From: Desulfobacterales bacterium
GTDB taxonomy: Bacteria; Desulfobacterota; Desulfobulbia; Desulfobulbales; BM004
Direction: 5' to 3'
NCBI GenBank assembly: GCA_021647905.1
Contig: JAKITW010000019.1
Coordinates: 1 to 37,395 of the forward strand
DNA length: 37,395 bases
A program made the position numbers and the translations under genes. Of this stretch, positions 4,160 through 27,315 are shown in pieces. Every line of letters begins with the position of its first letter. Position 1 is the first letter of the stretch. The notes beneath the pieces are model-generated. The model was not told the DNA's origin. It saw only the letters and a list, made by a program, of their open reading frames with translations, and ran no database searches.

Positions 4160-5197
4160 CTATTCCTCGCAGACCATGGCGACAAAGCGGGCCATGTCCA
4201 CCCCGCCGAAGCAGATATCAATGCAACGGCCGCAGCCCACGCAACTCGGCCGGCCGTGTCTGGTCACGTCGTGCAGAAGTTTATGCCGGAACCGCCGGCG
4301 GATCGCCTGAGTCTGGTGGTCCACCGGATTATGGCCCCCGGCCATTCTGGTGAACCCGGCAAAGGTGCAGGCATCCCAGTTGCGGATCCGCAGTCCGGAG
4401 TCGGCGGTGACCGCCTGATCGCGGATGGTGAAGCAGGTACAGGTCGGACAGATATAGGTGCAGCCGCTGCAGTCCTGGCAGCGGCGGGAAAGCGCCTCCC
4501 AGATCGCGTCCGGAACCCGGTCCTCCCGCAGCCGGCGGATCGCCCGTTCCACCTGGACCTGGCGATGGAAATTGCCCCGGGCCTCCAGGGAGAGCTGGTA
4601 CTGTGCCTTTTTATCCTCCTCCCGGGCCGGGGTAAAGAAATGACCCAGCCGGGTAATCAGTTCCCGGCCCCTGATCCGGCCCACCTCGACAAAGTAGCGG
4701 TCGCCGAGGTCGGTGAACTGGAGATCATAGCCCATTTCGAGGAAGGGTCCGCTTTTGGTGGCGTTGCAGAAACAGTTGGCAAAGGGCTGGGTGCAGCCGA
4801 TGCTGATCAGGATCGCGTTTTCGCGGCGTTTCAGGTAATAGGGATCCTTGGCCTGGCCGAGAAAGGTCACGTCCATGTAGAGGATCGCCGCCAGATCGCA
4901 GGAGCGCAGCCCGAAATAGATGGTGTCCGCGGCCGAGTTGAGCGGGGTGAACCGGTAGTCGCCGGCCGCTGATATCTCATAGGTGAACAGGGTCTCCTGC
5001 TGGGGGAAGAGGTAGGGCTTGGCCGAGGCGATTGCCTGGTTTTCCAGATCAATGTCGACCTGGTCCAGTTCCTGGATCAGGGTGAACAGGGTGTCGCCCT
5101 GGCGGTTGCGGACCGGCGCCACCAGCCGGTGGTTTTTCTTCAGCCGCCGGAGCAGGGACGGCAGATGGTCTTTTCCGAGGATACAGGTTTCAAGCAT
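4160..5197 (-). CDS. 4Fe-4S electron-transfer subunit (HydB/AsrA-like)
   Basis: 345 residues. The C-terminal third has two cysteine clusters: C240, C243, C246, C250 (with further Cys at 253 and 255) and C319, C322, C325, C329, each fit for a 4Fe-4S centre. The N-terminal part has YFGLRSCDLAAI, typical of the sulfhydrogenase beta and AsrA family. Its expected role is to link the formate dehydrogenase catalytic subunit to the flavoprotein. It overlaps fdhA by 8 nt (ATGCTTGA) and ends 3 nt before the flavoprotein gene. The set resembles the beta-gamma electron-transfer module of soluble hydrogenases joined to a formate dehydrogenase. Confidence 0.88.
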   Translation of the reverse strand: MLETCILGKDHLPSLLRRLKKNHRLVAPVRNRQGDTLFTLIQELDQVDIDLENQAIASAKPYLFPQQETLFTYEISAAGDYRFTPLNSAADTIYFGLRSCDLAAILYMDVTFLGQAKDPYYLKRRENAILISIGCTQPFANCFCNATKSGPFLEMGYDLQFTDLGDRYFVEVGRIRGRELITRLGHFFTPAREEDKKAQYQLSLEARGNFHRQVQVERAIRRLREDRVPDAIWEALSRRCQDCSGCTYICPTCTCFTIRDQAVTADSGLRIRNWDACTFAGFTRMAGGHNPVDHQTQAIRRRFRHKLLHDVTRHGRPSCVGCGRCIDICFGGVDMARFVAMVCEE

Positions 5198-7220
5198 GGG
5201 TCACCTTTTCGATCCGGACCGCGCATATCTTGTATTCCGGGCATTGGGCCTTGGGATCCCGGGCATCCACGGTCAGAAAGTTAACCGGCGCCTCGGTAAA
5301 GTGGAAGCTGGTAAACAGCGCCCCTGGCACGACCCGGTCGGTTATCTCGGCCCGGAGCTCGATCTCCCCCCGGCGGGAGACCAGCCGCAGCCAATCGCCG
5401 TTGCCGATCTTGTGGCGGCCGGCGTCAACCGGGTTGATCTCCAGCCGGGCCCTGCCCCCCTCGCGGACCAGCATCGGGCTTTTCCTGGTCATGGTCCCGG
5501 TGTGAAAGTGGTGATAAAGGCGGCCGGTGTTCAAAACAAAGGGATAGTCCTGGTCCGGTCTTTCACTGGGCCGCTGGTGACGGGTGGGCACGAACCGGCC
5601 CCGGCCCCGGGTAAAGGCGTACTTGTGCAGATAGGGGGTGCCGGGATGGGAGCGGTCCGGGCAGGGCCACTGCAGGCCCCAGGAATCCTCCAGCCGGTTG
5701 TGATAGATCCCGCCGTAGATCGGGGTCAAGAGGGCGATCTCCTCCATGATCTCGGCTGCTGATTCATAGTCCATCTCATAGCCCAGGCAGCGGGACAGGC
5801 CGATGACGATCTCCGAGTCGGAGCGGCTGGAACCAAGGGGATCAATGGCCTGGCGAACCAGTTGCACCCGCCGTTCGGAACTGGTGATCGTGCCGGTTTT
5901 TTCGGCAAAGGAGGCAGCCGGAAAAACCACGTCGGCCAGGGTTGCGGTCTCGCTGAGAAAGAGATCGGAAACCGCCAGAAACTCCAGTTGCTCCAGCTTC
6001 TTTTTCACCTTGGCCAGGGTGGGGTCGCTCCGCATCGGATTCTCGCCCATGATCAGCATTGCGCGTACCTGGTCGCCATGGGTCATATCCAGCAGGGTCA
6101 GGCCCGGCCCGGCGGGCAGCTCGGTCTGCCAGGCCCGGGCGAATTTCGCCCGGACATCCGGATCGGCCACCGACTGGTAGCCGGGCAGGACCGCGGGCAG
6201 GGCGCCCATGTCGCAGGCCCCCTGGACATTGGAGTGGCCGCGCAGGGGATCGACCCCGGTATCCTCCTGCTCCACATGGCCGGTGAGCATGGCCAGGTTG
6301 GAGTAGGACTGGACATTGTCGGTGCCGCAGATATGCTGGGTCACTCCCAGGCAGTAGCAGATCACCGCCTTGCTCGCCCGGGCGTAAAGCTTGGCCGCCC
6401 GGGAGATCTCGTCCAAGGCCAGCCCGGTCAGGGACGCGGTCTCCTTCAGGTCGATTCGCAGGAGCATGTCGCGCAGGGCATGAAAGTTCTCGGCCCGCAT
6501 CTCGATGAACACGTCATCGATCATGTTTTCGTCAAGGATGATCCGCATCATCGCATTGACCAGCGGGATATCGGTGCCCGGCCGGATTGCCAGGTGGATA
6601 TCGGCATGCTCGGCCATGAAGGTGCGGCGGGGATCAATGACGATCAACCTGGCGCCCCGGTCCCTGGCATCCATGATCCTCCGGGCCACCTGGGGATGGG
6701 TCGCGGAGGTGTTGGAGCCCGAGACCAGGATCACCTGGCTGTTCTCGATCTCATTGATCGAGTTGGTCATCGCGCCGCTGCCAAAGGTGGTGGCCAGACC
6801 GGCCACCGTGGGCGCGTGTCAGAGCCGGGCGCAGTGGTCGACGTTGTTGGTCTTGAGCACTGCCCGGGCGAATTTCTGCAGCAGATAGTTTTCCTCGTTG
6901 GTGCATTTGGCCGAGGCCAACACCCCCAGGGCGCGGCCGCCGTGCCGGTCGCGGATCCGGGCAAACGCGGTTGCGGTCGCGGTCAGGGCCTGGTCCCAGG
7001 AGACCGGTGTCAGCTCGTTGTTTTTTCTGAGCAACGGGGTCTGCAGCCGGGCCGGGTCATGGATGAACTCGTGGATGTGCCAGCCCCGCACGCAGAGGTT
7101 GTTGCGGGTGACCGGGTGGCCGCGGCTGGGCATGACCCCGGTCACCCGGTTGTCAACGACCCGCAGGTACAGGCCGCAGCCGCAGCCGCAGTAACAGCAG
7201 GTAGTCAGTACATCCCGCAT
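5190..7220 (-). CDS. fdhA: Formate dehydrogenase catalytic subunit, selenocysteine-containing
   Basis: 676 residues when the UGA at 6821-6819 is read as selenocysteine 134. It belongs to the molybdopterin oxidoreductase family and oxidises formate or reduces CO2. The N-terminus has the 4Fe-4S motif CCYCGCGC (C8, C11, C15) with C43. The active-site segment reads HCARL-U-HAPTVAG, followed by GSGAMTNSINEIENS, matching the FdhF pattern around Sec140. A SECIS hairpin lies directly downstream. Later come LVSGSNTSATHP and a C-terminal molybdopterin-dinucleotide domain. No Tat signal is visible, so it is probably cytoplasmic. The start ATG has an AGGGGGG ribosome site 6 nt upstream. It heads a four-gene operon with HydB/HydG-like subunits, suggesting an NAD(P)-linked soluble enzyme. 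An automatic gene call would split it into two frames at the UGA. Confidence 0.95.
6789..6807 (-). promoter_or_regulatory. SECIS element of fdhA
   Basis: On the minus strand the sequence GGUGGCC-GGUCU-GGCCACC forms a 7-bp stem with a GGUCU loop. It begins 12 nt after the UGA, with the loop guanines at +19 and +20. This is the same position and loop sequence as in the well-studied E. coli fdhF element that SelB binds, so read-through at 6819-6821 is expected. Confidence 0.92.
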
Positions 7221-22246: not shown

Positions 22247-23746
22247 ATGGTCGAAACAATTGATATTCTCTTTGTCCTGGCCGGGCTGGTGGGCGGCTTC
22301 GGCATTGCCTGGTTTATCCTCCGGGGCCGGCGGCGGCTCTTTGAGGAGCAGGTCCGGGGCGAACGAACCGCAACGGCCCGGTTGCTCCAGGACCGGGAGC
22401 AGCAACTGGCCGAGGCCCGGGAGTCGGCCCGTCTGCTCCGGGAAGAACTGGATGGTCTGCTGACCCGGTTCCGGGAACAGGGCGAGCGGCGGGCCGCGGC
22501 CGAGGAGAAGTGCGGCCGCATTGCGGAGCTGGAACAGGCCCTTGATGACCGGGAAAAGGCGGCCCGGGCCCTGCGGGATGAGAATACCGGGTTAAAGACC
22601 AGGCTCTCCGGGCTTGAGACCCGGCTGGTTGAGGAACAGAAGCGTTCCGAGGAGAAACTGCTTCTGCTCGCCGAGGCCCGGGACCAGTTGAAGATCGAAT
22701 TTCAGAATCTGGCCCAGAAGATCTTTGAGGAAAAGGGGCAGAAGTTCACTGAGCAGAACCGGGTCAACCTGGACGGGGTACTCCGGCCGATGCGGGAACA
22801 ACTGGCCGAGTTCAAGAAACGGGTCGAGGACGTCTATGACAAGGAGTCCAAGGAGCGGCTTTCCCTGCTCCACGAGATCGGTACCCTCAAGGCCCTGAAC
22901 CAGCGGATCAGCGAAGACGCTGTCAACCTGACCAATGCCCTGAAGGGCCAGAGCAAGACCCAGGGGGCCTGGGGCGAGATGATCCTGGAGCGGGTCCTTG
23001 AGGAGTCCGGCCTGCGCAAGGGGCGGGAATATGAGAGCCAGTCCGGTTTTACCGGTGAGCAGGGGCAACAACTGCGGCCCGACGTGGTGGTGCACCTGCC
23101 CGAGGGCAAGGACGTGGTCATAGATTCCAAGGTCTCGCTCACTGCTTATGAACGTTTCTGCGCCGCGGCCACGGAGGAGGAACGGGCCCGGCAGCTCAAG
23201 CTGCACATCGCCTCGCTCAGGGCCCATGTCAAGGGGTTGAGCGACAAGAACTACACCGGGTTGGCCGGGATCCGCTCCCTGGACTTTGTCCTCCTGTTCC
23301 TGCCCGTTGAGGGCGCCTTTCTGGCGGCCGTTGACAGCGACTCCGGTCTGTTCAACGACGCCTTAAGCAAAAACATTCTTCTGGTCTGTCCCTCCACCCT
23401 GCTCGCCACCCTGCGCACCATCCAGAATATCTGGCGCTACGAGTATCAGAACCGCAACGCCCTGGAGATCGCCAAAAAGGCCGGTGACCTCTACGATAAG
23501 TTCGTCGGCTTTGTCGAGGCCCTGGAGGATGTGGGCCACAAGATCGCCAAGGCCCGCGATGCCTATGACACGGCCCATAAGCGGTTGGTCAGCGGCCGGG
23601 GCAACCTGATCAGGAGGGCCCGGGACCTGGAACGGCTCGGGGTCAAGGCCCGCAAATCCCTGCCCGGGGAACTGGTCAATGAGGCGGAGCCGGACCAGGG
23701 GCCGGACGCCGGAGGAGGCAACTCTCCGGCAGACACTAACTCCTAA
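22247..23746 (+). CDS. rmuC: RmuC-family DNA recombination protein
   Basis: 499 residues. An N-terminal membrane helix (IDILFVLAGLVGGFGIAWFIL) is followed by a long coiled coil (RTATARLLQDREQQL... to about 180) and the nuclease-like RmuC domain (GAWGEMILERVLEESGLRKG, RPDVVVHLPEGKDVVIDSKVSL, FLPVEGAFLAA). RmuC limits recombination at inverted repeats, fitting in a repeat-rich genome. I chose the ATG at 22247, which has GGAGGT 10 nt upstream; the open frame starts at 22166, but the extra 27 residues look non-coding. It overlaps mtnA by 4 bp tail to tail. Confidence 0.88.
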   Translation: MVETIDILFVLAGLVGGFGIAWFILRGRRRLFEEQVRGERTATARLLQDREQQLAEARESARLLREELDGLLTRFREQGERRAAAEEKCGRIAELEQALDDREKAARALRDENTGLKTRLSGLETRLVEEQKRSEEKLLLLAEARDQLKIEFQNLAQKIFEEKGQKFTEQNRVNLDGVLRPMREQLAEFKKRVEDVYDKESKERLSLLHEIGTLKALNQRISEDAVNLTNALKGQSKTQGAWGEMILERVLEESGLRKGREYESQSGFTGEQGQQLRPDVVVHLPEGKDVVIDSKVSLTAYERFCAAATEEERARQLKLHIASLRAHVKGLSDKNYTGLAGIRSLDFVLLFLPVEGAFLAAVDSDSGLFNDALSKNILLVCPSTLLATLRTIQNIWRYEYQNRNALEIAKKAGDLYDKFVGFVEALEDVGHKIAKARDAYDTAHKRLVSGRGNLIRRARDLERLGVKARKSLPGELVNEAEPDQGPDAGGGNSPADTNS

Positions 23747-24846
23747 CGATACTCGGGGTACAGGGCCAGGATCGACGATTCATCGGCCGCCATCACCCCC
23801 CGTTCACTGATCAGGCCGGTGATCAGCCGGGCCGGGGTGATATCAAAGCCGTAGTTGGCCGTCCGGGTATCCGGCGGACTGATCAACACCGTGGCCGGGG
23901 TCCGGTCCGGACCCAGGCCGGTGACATACCTTATCTCGTCGCCGCTTCGTTGCTCAATCGGAATCTCGGTCAGGCCGTGCCGGATGGTCCAGTCAAAGGT
24001 GGAGGAGGGCAGGGCCACATAAAAGGGGACCCCGCAGTCCATGGCCGCCAGGGCCTTGAGATAGGTGCCGATCTTGTTGGCCACGTCACCGGTGCGGGTG
24101 GTCCGGTCGGTGCCGACGATCACCAGATCGACCAGACCATGCTGCATCAGGTGGCCGCCGCAGTTGTCAACGATCAGGGTATGGGGAACCCCCTCCTGGC
24201 CCAGTTCCCAGGCGGTCAGCCGGGCGCCCTGGTTCCAGGGCCTGGTTTCGTCAACCCAGACATGGACCGGAATTTTCTCTTGATGCGCGGCATATATCGG
24301 CGCGGTGGCTGAGCCGTAATCCACAAAGGCCAGCCAGCCGGCATTGCAGTGGGTGAGGATGTTGACCGCTGTCCCGTCCTTGCGTCTACTGATTTCCTCG
24401 ATGATTTTCAAGCCGTGCTCACCGATTCTCCGGCAGAATTCCGCATCCTGGTCGGCAATGGCGCAGGCAGTGGCAAAGGCGGTGTTGATCTTGTCCGCCA
24501 CTGTGGCGGCCCCGGCCATGGCGGCCAGTTGCCGTTGCACGGCCCAGGCCAGGTTCGCGGCCGTGGGCCGGGTGGCGATCAGCCGGTCGGCCGCGGCCCG
24601 GATATCCCGGTCGAAATTATCCGGTTGCGCGGTCAGGGCGGCGATGTACATCCCGAACCCGGCGGTGGCGCCGATCAGCCCGGCGCCGCGGACATGCATC
24701 TCGCGGATGGCGGTCGCGAAATCTTCCACCGTGGCCAGGTCCTTGATCACGAACCAATGCGGCAGCTGGCGTTGATCGATGATCTGGATCGTCTTTTTAT
24801 CTTCAGCCGGCCAGATGGTCCGGTAATGGGTATTGTCAACGTTCAT
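23743..24846 (-). CDS. mtnA: S-methyl-5-thioribose-1-phosphate isomerase-like protein
   Basis: 367 residues of the MtnA/eIF2B-alpha family, which isomerises methylthioribose-1-phosphate to the ribulose form in methionine salvage or related 5-deoxypentose shunts. The catalytic cysteine is C167 (THCNAGW) and the aspartate is D247 (VGTDRTTRTGDVANKIGTY). An RGAGLIGATA phosphate loop lies near residue 55. The TDRTTRTGD form differs from the common ADRIAANGD and suggests a distinct subgroup. No other salvage gene is nearby. It is the third gene of a leftward operon, 20 nt after the small UGA-containing gene. Confidence 0.88.
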   Translation of the reverse strand: MNVDNTHYRTIWPAEDKKTIQIIDQRQLPHWFVIKDLATVEDFATAIREMHVRGAGLIGATAGFGMYIAALTAQPDNFDRDIRAAADRLIATRPTAANLAWAVQRQLAAMAGAATVADKINTAFATACAIADQDAEFCRRIGEHGLKIIEEISRRKDGTAVNILTHCNAGWLAFVDYGSATAPIYAAHQEKIPVHVWVDETRPWNQGARLTAWELGQEGVPHTLIVDNCGGHLMQHGLVDLVIVGTDRTTRTGDVANKIGTYLKALAAMDCGVPFYVALPSSTFDWTIRHGLTEIPIEQRSGDEIRYVTGLGPDRTPATVLISPPDTRTANYGFDITPARLITGLISERGVMAADESSILALYPEYR

Positions 24847-24866: not shown

Positions 24867-25031
24867 TTATGAGAGCAGCATCCTGAGCAGGATAAATGAG
24901 ATGAGGCCGATACCTATCGAGCCGTAGGCCAGCAGTCAGGGGATGCAGTCGCTGCGCATCCGCCGGGCCAAGAGGGCAAAGGTGAGGGCGGCAATAGCAA
25001 AGGAGAGTATAAAGAGAACGATGTCCGGCAT
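24867..25031 (-). CDS. Candidate 54-residue membrane selenoprotein (in-frame UGA)
   Basis: The ATG at 25031 opens a frame of 31 codons, a TGA at 24938-24936, then 22 codons and TAA. Read through, the product is 54 residues: helix 1 (IVLFILSFAIAALTFALLA), a basic loop RRMRSDCIP, Sec32, then helix 2 (LLAYGSIGIGLISFILLRML). C29-I-P-U32 is a Cys-x-x-Sec redox-type motif at the membrane edge. A SECIS-like hairpin follows the UGA. The frame fits neatly between neighbours on the same strand: 22 nt after the upstream stop and 20 nt before mtnA. There is no strong ribosome site, so translational coupling is likely. The organism uses selenocysteine (fdhA). The alternative is a Trp codon (TGG) mutated to TGA in a normal small protein. 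I recognise no family. Confidence 0.5.
24905..24923 (-). promoter_or_regulatory. SECIS-like hairpin of the candidate small selenoprotein
   Basis: On the minus strand GGC-U-CGAU-AGGU-AUCG-GCC folds as a 3+4-bp stem with one bulged U and an AGGU loop. The loop guanines are 22-23 nt after the UGA, against 19-20 nt in fdhA. A loop G pair and a bulged U are hallmarks of bacterial SECIS elements. The stem is short, so the fold needs testing. Confidence 0.45.
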
Positions 25032-25053: not shown

Positions 25054-27315
25054 TTAGGTTGACCGGGCTATCCGGGGTGTGGGCTGGCCCTGGCCGAAGA
25101 AGCGGACGAATTCCCGGGCCGGCAGCGGTTTGCCGAACAGGAAACCCTGGATATTGAAGCAGTCCTGTTTGTGGAGCAGGGCAAGCTGGGCCTCAAGTTC
25201 AACCCCCTCGGCCGTGGTATGGAGGTTCATGTTGCGGGCCAGGGCGATGATCGAGGAGACGATCACCGCATCGTTGGGATTGGTGTGAATCTGTTTGATA
25301 AAGGAGCGGTCGATCTTGAGCCTGGTGATGGGAAAGAGCCGCAGGTAGCTGAGCGAGGAGTAACCGGTGCCGAAATCGTCAATGGCGATCTGGATGCCCA
25401 TGTCCGCGATTTTGTTCAGGATGCGGATATTTTTCTCAACATCCTGAACAATGATGCTTTCGGTGAGTTCCAGTTCGAGAAACCGGGGGTCAAGACCGGA
25501 CCTGGCAAGGATATCGGTCACCAGCCCGTAAAAATCCCGCTGCCGGAACTGGCGGCCGGAGACGTTGACCGCCATGGTGATCGGCGGGAAGCCCTGTTCC
25601 TGCCAGGCCTTGTTCTGGGCGCAGGCCGTGCGCATCACCCATTCACCGATGGGCTCGATCAGGCCGGTCTCCTCGGCCAGCGGGATGAAGTTTCCCGGGG
25701 CGAGCAGGCCCTTTTCCGGATGATGCCAGCGGACCAGGGCCTCGGCGCCCATCAGGCGATTGGCCGCGGTGTCGAACTGGGGCTGATAGTAAAGGGTCAG
25801 TTCGTCCAACTCCAGGGCCTTGCGCAGTCCGTTCTCCAGCAGCAGGAATTCAAAGGCCCGGGTATTGGTGCCCGCGGTGTAGAACTGGTAATTGTTGCGG
25901 CCGGACTCCTTGGCCCGGAACATGGCCGAGTCAGCGCACTGCATCAGCCCGTCGCTGTCAACGCTGTCCTCGGGATAGAGGCTGATGCCGATGCTGGTGG
26001 AGACAACCAGTTCGAACTTTTCGATCAGAAACGGTTTGGCCAGGGCCGCCATGATGTTGCGGGTGACCACGGTCACATACTTGGAGTCCTTGATGTCGTC
26101 GAGAATTATGCCGAACTCGTCGCCGCTCAGCCGGGCCACGGTATCACTCCGGCGCAGGCAGCCCTGCAGCCGGCCGGCGATCTCCCGCAGTACCTTGTCG
26201 CCGGCCTCATGGCCCAGGGTCTCGTTGATCTTCTTGAATCGGTCCAGGTCGAGAAACAGGACCGCCACCAGGTTCTTGTGGCGCTGGGCCTTGGCCATCA
26301 GCATCTGCAGCCGGTCCTGAAACAGCATCCGGTTGGGAAGATTGGTGAGCGGGTCGTGCTGGGACAGGTAGTAGAGGCGCGATTCATCATTACGCAGTTC
26401 AGTCCTGGCCGTCTCGTCGGCCGACTGGTTCCGGAAGATCTCAAGGCACCCGCTCAGGGTGCCCTCTTCATTCCACAGGGGCGAGGCCTTGATCTCACAG
26501 ACATTTTCCTCGCCATTGTCACCGGGCCGGGTCTGGACGATTGTGACCGGCCGGCCGGTTTTTTTAACATCCTCCAGGGGGCACTGGTGCATGTTTTCGG
26601 AACAGGAGGCGCTGAAACGGGGAACGGTCTGATAACAGTACAGTTCCTCTTGCTCCAGGAGTTCGGCGGACAGAAGGTCCCGGGCCGCCTGGTTCATCAT
26701 CAGCACCTTTTTGTTCAGATCGATCAACTGGGCCGGCTCGATTAACCCGTCGATGATGGTCTGGAGAAAATGGTGGTCAAGGGGAGCGGTATTTTCTTCC
26801 GGCCCGGAGTTGTCAGCAGGCGTTGTCGCAAGGTCCGGACCGGTCTTTTTCTTCCCCTGCTTCTTTTCCTCTTCGTCAAGCCGGGCCTGATACCGTTGGG
26901 AGAGGCGAAGCAGCTCCGCCCGCTCCCTGGCCTTGTCAATGGCATGGAGCAAGAGCGCCGGGGAATCAGCAACGGATCTGGCAACCAGGTCCCAGGCCCC
27001 GAGACGCAGGGCCTGGAGCGCGTCGGCGATATGCTCCTGGTCGGACAGGACGAGCAGCGGCGTTTGCAACGAGTCGCGGGTAAGGGTCCGCACCATCTCC
27101 AGGGGATCGGCACCTGGAAGCTGCAGATCAAGGAGCACCAGGTCCGGTTTGTTCGTTTCCATGATCCCGGCATATTGGCTGCTGTTTTCAGCCTCAAGGA
27201 CAGAGAAGTTCCGGCTGACGAGAAGAGAGGTGATGGAGAGACGCGTTTTACCGGGGGCAACAACGGCCAGAACCGTGTAGCTGGAGCGGCAGGACGTCTG
27301 GGATGGATCTGTCAT
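25054..27315 (-). CDS. REC-PAS-GGDEF-EAL cyclic-di-GMP protein with degenerate receiver
   Basis: 753 residues. A receiver-like domain (1-~125) keeps the Asp (D63 in LLDLQLPG), but the usual acidic pair is replaced (VVAPGK) and the conserved Lys near the end is not seen (DLVARSV), so normal phosphorylation is doubtful. A charged linker and a PAS domain with several cysteines (CYQTVPRFSASCSENMHQC) follow. The GGDEF motif is SGDEF at 397-401; the EAL domain is well conserved (EAL 525-527, NVSGRQF, ELTES, IDDFGTGYSSL, KIDRSFI). The protein may make or degrade c-di-GMP; the intact EAL residues favour hydrolysis. It is cytoplasmic, with no membrane helix. It heads the operon with the small UGA gene and mtnA. 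Confidence 0.92.
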   Translation of the reverse strand: MTDPSQTSCRSSYTVLAVVAPGKTRLSITSLLVSRNFSVLEAENSSQYAGIMETNKPDLVLLDLQLPGADPLEMVRTLTRDSLQTPLLVLSDQEHIADALQALRLGAWDLVARSVADSPALLLHAIDKARERAELLRLSQRYQARLDEEEKKQGKKKTGPDLATTPADNSGPEENTAPLDHHFLQTIIDGLIEPAQLIDLNKKVLMMNQAARDLLSAELLEQEELYCYQTVPRFSASCSENMHQCPLEDVKKTGRPVTIVQTRPGDNGEENVCEIKASPLWNEEGTLSGCLEIFRNQSADETARTELRNDESRLYYLSQHDPLTNLPNRMLFQDRLQMLMAKAQRHKNLVAVLFLDLDRFKKINETLGHEAGDKVLREIAGRLQGCLRRSDTVARLSGDEFGIILDDIKDSKYVTVVTRNIMAALAKPFLIEKFELVVSTSIGISLYPEDSVDSDGLMQCADSAMFRAKESGRNNYQFYTAGTNTRAFEFLLLENGLRKALELDELTLYYQPQFDTAANRLMGAEALVRWHHPEKGLLAPGNFIPLAEETGLIEPIGEWVMRTACAQNKAWQEQGFPPITMAVNVSGRQFRQRDFYGLVTDILARSGLDPRFLELELTESIIVQDVEKNIRILNKIADMGIQIAIDDFGTGYSSLSYLRLFPITRLKIDRSFIKQIHTNPNDAVIVSSIIALARNMNLHTTAEGVELEAQLALLHKQDCFNIQGFLFGKPLPAREFVRFFGQGQPTPRIARST

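Follow-up and report, generated by a model that had tools for sequence, protein, structure and literature searches.

A predicted two-helix membrane selenoprotein with a C-x-P-U motif, kept across two classes of one bacterial phylum

The window analyzed here is the whole 37,395-nucleotide stretch of DNA shown above, a contig from a Desulfobacterales bacterium. On its minus strand, a very short gene is packed between mtnA and a response regulator gene. The features that concern us are the following:

5190-7050, minus strand: fdhA, formate dehydrogenase alpha subunit with Sec (...DHCARLUHAPT...), UGA at 6821-6819
23743..24846, minus strand: mtnA (methylthioribose-1-phosphate isomerase), the downstream neighbor, starting 20 nt after the TAA of the selenoprotein gene
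24867..25031, minus strand: predicted small membrane selenoprotein gene, 54 codons plus TAA
24905..24923, minus strand: SECIS-type hairpin GGC-[U]-CGAU-AGGU-AUCG-GCC, within the coding sequence, +13 to +31 after the UGA
24936..24938, minus strand: in-frame UGA, residue 32, inferred from homologs and dN/dS to be read as selenocysteine
25054..27315, minus strand: 753-codon response regulator with GGDEF and EAL domains, the upstream neighbor, whose stop lies 22 nt before the selenoprotein ATG

The frame 25031..24867 contains a single TGA, at codon 32 (24938-24936), and the standard code reads this 54-residue gene as a 31-codon scrap. With the TGA translated as U, the product is MPDIVLFILSFAIAALTFALLARRMRSDCIP-U-LLAYGSIGIGLISFILLRMLLS, in which the motif C29-I-P-U32 lies between two hydrophobic helices, at the start of helix 2. 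The original prediction had described a 54-codon frame with one TGA, a C29-x-x-U32 motif and tight spacing to both neighbors, and all of this was reproduced at base level.

A search of 58 relatives with residue 32 masked returned a match in 49 of them, and every match to E 0.025 contained exactly one internal stop, a TGA. With a profile of 48 members, 217 of the 258 genomes of the window's class matched at E 0.05, a count that includes a few chance matches (e.g. G155, G196 and G019); among good assemblies, the figure was 138 of 149. In a second class of the same phylum, the profile matched 64 of 297 sampled genomes and a broader one 59 of 277; all second-class matches with E < 1e-6 carry one TGA. 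We take the window's class to be Desulfobulbia and the second class to be Desulfovibrionia, which is an unverified guess. Nothing convincing was found outside these two classes in an evenly drawn sample of the phylum, where weak matches in other classes (G585, G610) were at chance level. Plasmids and phages were both searched without finding the family, and a single-protein scan of genome contigs gave only a weak partial match (L031), probably by chance. Overall, the fetched loci yielded 128 distinct homologous sequences, and their codon 32 is TGA in 126, TGC (Cys) in two and TGG (Trp) in none. The original prediction had looked to homologs with TGA plus a hairpin, or with Cys at position 32, for support, and both kinds exist; the Trp homologs that it said would refute it are absent from this set.

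The two Cys forms (L158:3087-3245 and L159:4991-5153) belong to genus g5 (G025, G012) and lack Y36, G40 and G42. One of them immediately precedes mtnA, an arrangement that it shares with many Sec forms and that supports orthology. SelB was matched in both of these genomes, which rules out the loss of SelB as the cause of the Cys forms. Five genomes of genus g43 (G106-G110) have neither SelB nor the family, while their relatives have both, a pattern consistent with a joint loss of Sec use. The family gene is also missing from some genomes that bear SelB, and two or three copies occur in G193, G839 and G917. In one member only of the 126, Gly replaces the motif Cys and Sec is kept (SSGRPU; L170 around 4988, G257), so that Sec alone may be sufficient there or the gene may be decaying. 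A weak, distant member (L163 around 2979, G776) has two in-frame TGA codons; this copy may be decaying, or may contain a second Sec.

The question of whether the segment after the UGA is translated was approached through selection, computed over 164 pairs with 70-93% DNA identity. Upstream of the UGA the dN/dS ratio was 0.16, and downstream of it 0.19; the final eight codons, which lie beyond the hairpin, gave 0.18, while pN about equaled pS past the genuine stop. The length of the segment is also kept, with 21 or 22 residues following U in 112 of the 126 members. From these sequence comparisons, we conclude that the segment after the UGA is translated; a lack of conservation there was the other outcome that would have refuted the original prediction. 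These results bear directly on the explanation that the TGA is a premature stop, whether a mutated Trp or other codon or the mark of a decaying gene. TGA is one base away from TGG, the original prediction named this as its main alternative, and the member with two TGA codons may indeed be decaying. Nevertheless, none of the 128 distinct homologs has TGG, two classes have retained TGA, and purifying selection runs on to the same downstream stop. The homologs thus rule out a Trp-to-stop mutation, and the chance that a premature stop of any kind explains the gene is, in our judgment, negligible. A genome-wide reassignment of UGA was ruled out as well. TGA terminates nine of the 21 long ORFs of the window and is the genuine terminator of 41 of the 126 family genes, so UGA is not globally reassigned.

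The loci of the 128 sequences have no universal neighbor gene. Upstream, TypA is the neighbor in 51 loci, with members of both classes, and other upstream genes include ComF; TypA (BipA) often precedes the family gene directly, within 10-60 nt (e.g. L183, L141). Downstream, mtnA follows directly in 37 of the 128 loci; in 29 the next gene is a NUDIX gene in convergent orientation, and in eight loci of the second class it is a MazG gene, also convergent. Only the window's family and one other, related family of its order have the GGDEF-EAL gene upstream, and a c-di-GMP link was therefore rejected as a general feature. The c-di-GMP/mtnA operon of the original prediction is accordingly true at this locus and specific to the lineage, with TypA, MtnA or MazG as neighbors elsewhere. 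Close pairing with mtnA or TypA recurs, but no function can be defined from it. In the second-class genome G296, a rubredoxin gene (L093:1641-1815, minus strand) immediately precedes the family gene and overlaps or abuts it; since it directly adjoins the family gene in one genome only, rubredoxin was rejected as a partner. At three second-class loci (L149, L156 and L175), the same strand carries, 21-39 nt upstream of the family gene, a gene for a protein of 62-74 residues that apparently has two membrane helices, and it is possible that this protein is a partner of the family protein.

The gene order is relevant to a second explanation, that the 31-residue product is the functional one and that selenium-dependent readthrough acts as a regulatory switch, for example for the downstream gene. 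Such a switch would fit a gene that is often packed against mtnA or TypA and whose Sec decoding would depend on the selenium supply. By contrast, the constraint on the amino acids after the UGA equals that before it, and in many loci the next gene (NUDIX or MazG) is on the opposite strand, leaving nothing to couple. We regard a readthrough switch as very improbable, and the reading we retain is a full-length selenoprotein.

We then considered the RNA downstream of the UGA. The apical loop of the window's hairpin holds the GGU of the Gly40 codon, with the loop GG at +22. This hairpin is the minimum-energy fold, at -8.2 kcal/mol, once the first 9 or more nucleotides after the UGA are excluded; these would be covered by the stalled ribosome. 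The whole 43-nt fold of the window sequence has a z of -0.65 against shuffles and prefers another hairpin, and the window's hairpin is no better than those of synonymous recodings (p about 0.2-0.3). As a single sequence the hairpin is therefore unexceptional, and the signal comes from the family. In 53 members of the window's hairpin type, aligned on the UGA, 98.1% of cells are paired over eight pairs, and pairing falls to 27-54% when the registers of the same sequences are slid. This set was chosen to fit one register, which biases the percent paired upward, and we consider the double-sided changes to be the stronger evidence. They occur at five of the eight pairs, in 54 cells against 16.6 in shuffled data, and none of 500 shuffles reached 54. 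The pair 18-33 (+15/+30) joins two third-codon positions and varies among C-G, A-U, U-G and U-A. In other members the register is shifted and the loop is of GGUG type, or there is a second hairpin, GGUAUG-GGUCU-CAUAUC, whose loop starts at about +28. For all 126 members, folding after the UGA has a mean z of -1.33 against synonymous recodings, compared with -0.39 for an upstream control region. The hairpin with a bulged U and an AGGU loop in the original prediction is thus present and covaries in the family, although taken alone it is no better than chance. Because the Gly40 GGU sits in the hairpin loop, the conservation of this glycine may partly serve the RNA.

The host genome contains the machinery that such decoding requires, with matches for SelB (5.1e-106) and tRNA-Sec (74.8 bits, gathering score 47). 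It also has two molybdopterin oxidoreductases with an in-frame TGA; the second is at G000:C14:750-2012. The use of Sec in fdhA, put forward in the original prediction, is borne out by the sequence DHCARLUHAPT with its UGA at 6821 on the minus strand. A strong hairpin with a GGUCU loop from +19 follows the UGA of this fdhA, and the GGUCU loop is common to it and to the second hairpin type of the family. Taken together, the occurrence of UGA or Cys across two classes, the covarying SECIS, and SelB and tRNA-Sec in the host show by comparison that UGA at codon 32 is a sense codon. Although there are no 75Se or peptide data, we infer that the gene almost certainly encodes a full-length selenoprotein of 54 residues in which the UGA is read as Sec.

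Several residues stand out in the protein. In the 48-member profile, C29, U32, Y36, G40 and G42 are invariant; Cys is found at -3 from U in 125 of 126 members, and Pro at -1 in 113 of 126. An AlphaFold2 model of low confidence (pLDDT 69, pTM 0.34) places helices at 2-24 and 32-53, and a fold search with this two-helix model gave no match. U32, Y36 and G40, being four residues apart, would lie on one face of helix 2. The 12 residues before U have a mean net charge of +1.65, and this positive charge implies a cytoplasmic loop by the positive-inside rule, a topology that is inferred.

From these features we propose the following mechanism. SelB bound to the hairpin would deliver Sec-tRNA to the UGA, and the product would form a membrane hairpin of helix 1, a positively charged loop and C-x-P-U at the N-terminus of helix 2. 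By the positive-inside rule, C-x-P-U would then sit where the inner membrane meets the cytoplasm. A reversible selenenylsulfide between Cys29 and Sec32 could make the protein a redox relay anchored in the membrane and carrying two electrons, by analogy with the C-x-P-C of thioredoxin. Such a relay might exchange electrons between thiols of the cytoplasm and a substrate in the membrane, for instance menaquinone, a peroxide or a second membrane protein. Substrate, topology and redox step are all inferred, and we offer the Cys29-Sec32 relay, as the simplest mechanism, only tentatively; it may well be correct but we would not call it probable. With no universal genomic partner, only the motif speaks for the redox role. 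For the membrane-edge redox protein of the original prediction, the redox role is still an inference without a partner.

Two further explanations accept the selenoprotein and differ in what Sec does. In the first, the protein would belong to a membrane complex, perhaps a respiratory complex, as a small accessory subunit whose Sec serves in assembly or protection. The small size, the glycine-rich face of helix 2 (G40, G42) and the near-universal presence in the class are in line with such a subunit, and a distant homolog (G857) lies, as judged by eye, among apparent hydrogenase/ferredoxin and membrane electron-transfer genes. Since no partner gene is conserved and the sampled genomes of the other classes of the phylum lack the family, we rate an accessory subunit as a real possibility, though a rather unlikely one. 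Alternatively, CxPU could, rather than catalyze redox chemistry, bind soft metals (Hg, Cu, Zn) or a metalloid as part of a small transporter or chaperone. MerF-type proteins are two-helix hairpins with a Cys pair, which the family resembles. A Sec-bearing MerT-like family with C/SxxU has also been catalogued (PMC13188914). However, no Mer family model matches any of the 48 members, no metal genes were seen recurring alongside, and a family present in nearly all good genomes of the class is more suggestive of a core role than of metal resistance. Neither the negative Mer models nor the near-universality excludes metal binding, and we hold a metal ligand to be improbable without dismissing it. 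Returning to the redox relay, its fullest form would be a new kind of membrane-embedded selenoenzyme of two helices, probably oligomeric, in which the Cys-Sec couple connects the quinone pool, or a membrane substrate, with thiols of the cytoplasm. This enzyme would serve a core function throughout a class of anaerobes, with Sec almost never replaced by Cys. Taken as a whole, this picture is speculative, and we think it unlikely to hold in every part.

We also compared the family with what has been described. The 48 members had no meaningful match in Pfam or NCBIfam (release 20), and none to selenoprotein models. The selenoprotein families of Haft 2023 and Haft & Tolstoy 2025 are reportedly represented in NCBIfam. 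Nothing that fits is listed among the 119 families and subfamilies of prokaryotic selenoproteins catalogued in 2026 (PMC13188914). No description of a two-helix selenoprotein was found in the literature, a search in which subscription papers and GenBank annotations were outside the scope. Given the lack of a match in Pfam, NCBIfam or the catalogue and of a description in the literature, we conclude on sequence grounds that this is a new selenoprotein family, whose protein is predicted to form a hairpin of two helices, with C-x-P-U where the second begins; the word "undescribed" in the original prediction agrees with Pfam, NCBIfam and the 2026 catalogue. Its presence in 138 of the 149 good genomes of the class would place the family among the most uniformly kept selenoproteins there and, in these anaerobes, makes it a candidate for a core membrane function that depends on selenium. 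The main sources of bacterial selenoprotein catalogues are annotated proteins and pairs of Cys and Sec forms, and the family escapes both, which suggests that small membrane selenoproteins are undercounted as a group.

Among known systems, the FeoB-associated Cys-rich membrane protein (PF12669) likewise has one membrane helix and, after it, a basic segment that contains Cys. Its matches were weak and at chance level for four of the 48 members (best E 0.056); unlike it, the family has a second helix with invariant Y36, G40 and G42, and no feoB neighbor was seen. The MerT/MerF mercury transport proteins are also small membrane proteins with Cys pairs, but the MerT, MerF and MerE models matched none of the 48 members and no mer genes were seen adjoining. 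In DsbB and VKOR, a CxxC motif is found at the membrane end of a transmembrane helix, a position that the C-x-P-U of the family is predicted to share. By contrast, DsbB and VKOR have four or more helices and periplasmic chemistry, whereas the family has two helices, a loop predicted to be cytoplasmic and no match to theirs. The resemblance to the CxPC of thioredoxin concerns the redox residues at i and i+3 at a helix N-terminus, with Pro before the second. The criterion of a thioredoxin fold is not met, as there are two helices only (in a low-confidence model) and no Pfam match; the helix of the family lies in the membrane and Sec is the second residue, so the analogy is one of working principle only. 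The three domain-less proteins reported by deep-Sep all have many Cys homologs (PMC12013277), which the present family does not. A further parallel is with bacterial CxxU selenoprotein genes (PMC13188914; NCBIfam), with which the family shares an in-frame UGA, C-x-x-U, Cys forms, SelB and tRNA-Sec, and a hairpin with GGU in its loop about 20 nt downstream. Unlike the catalogued CxxU selenoproteins, the family is about 54 residues long, is mostly membrane helix without a thioredoxin-like domain, and has very few Cys forms (two of 128), so that searches based on Cys/Sec pairs would tend to miss it.
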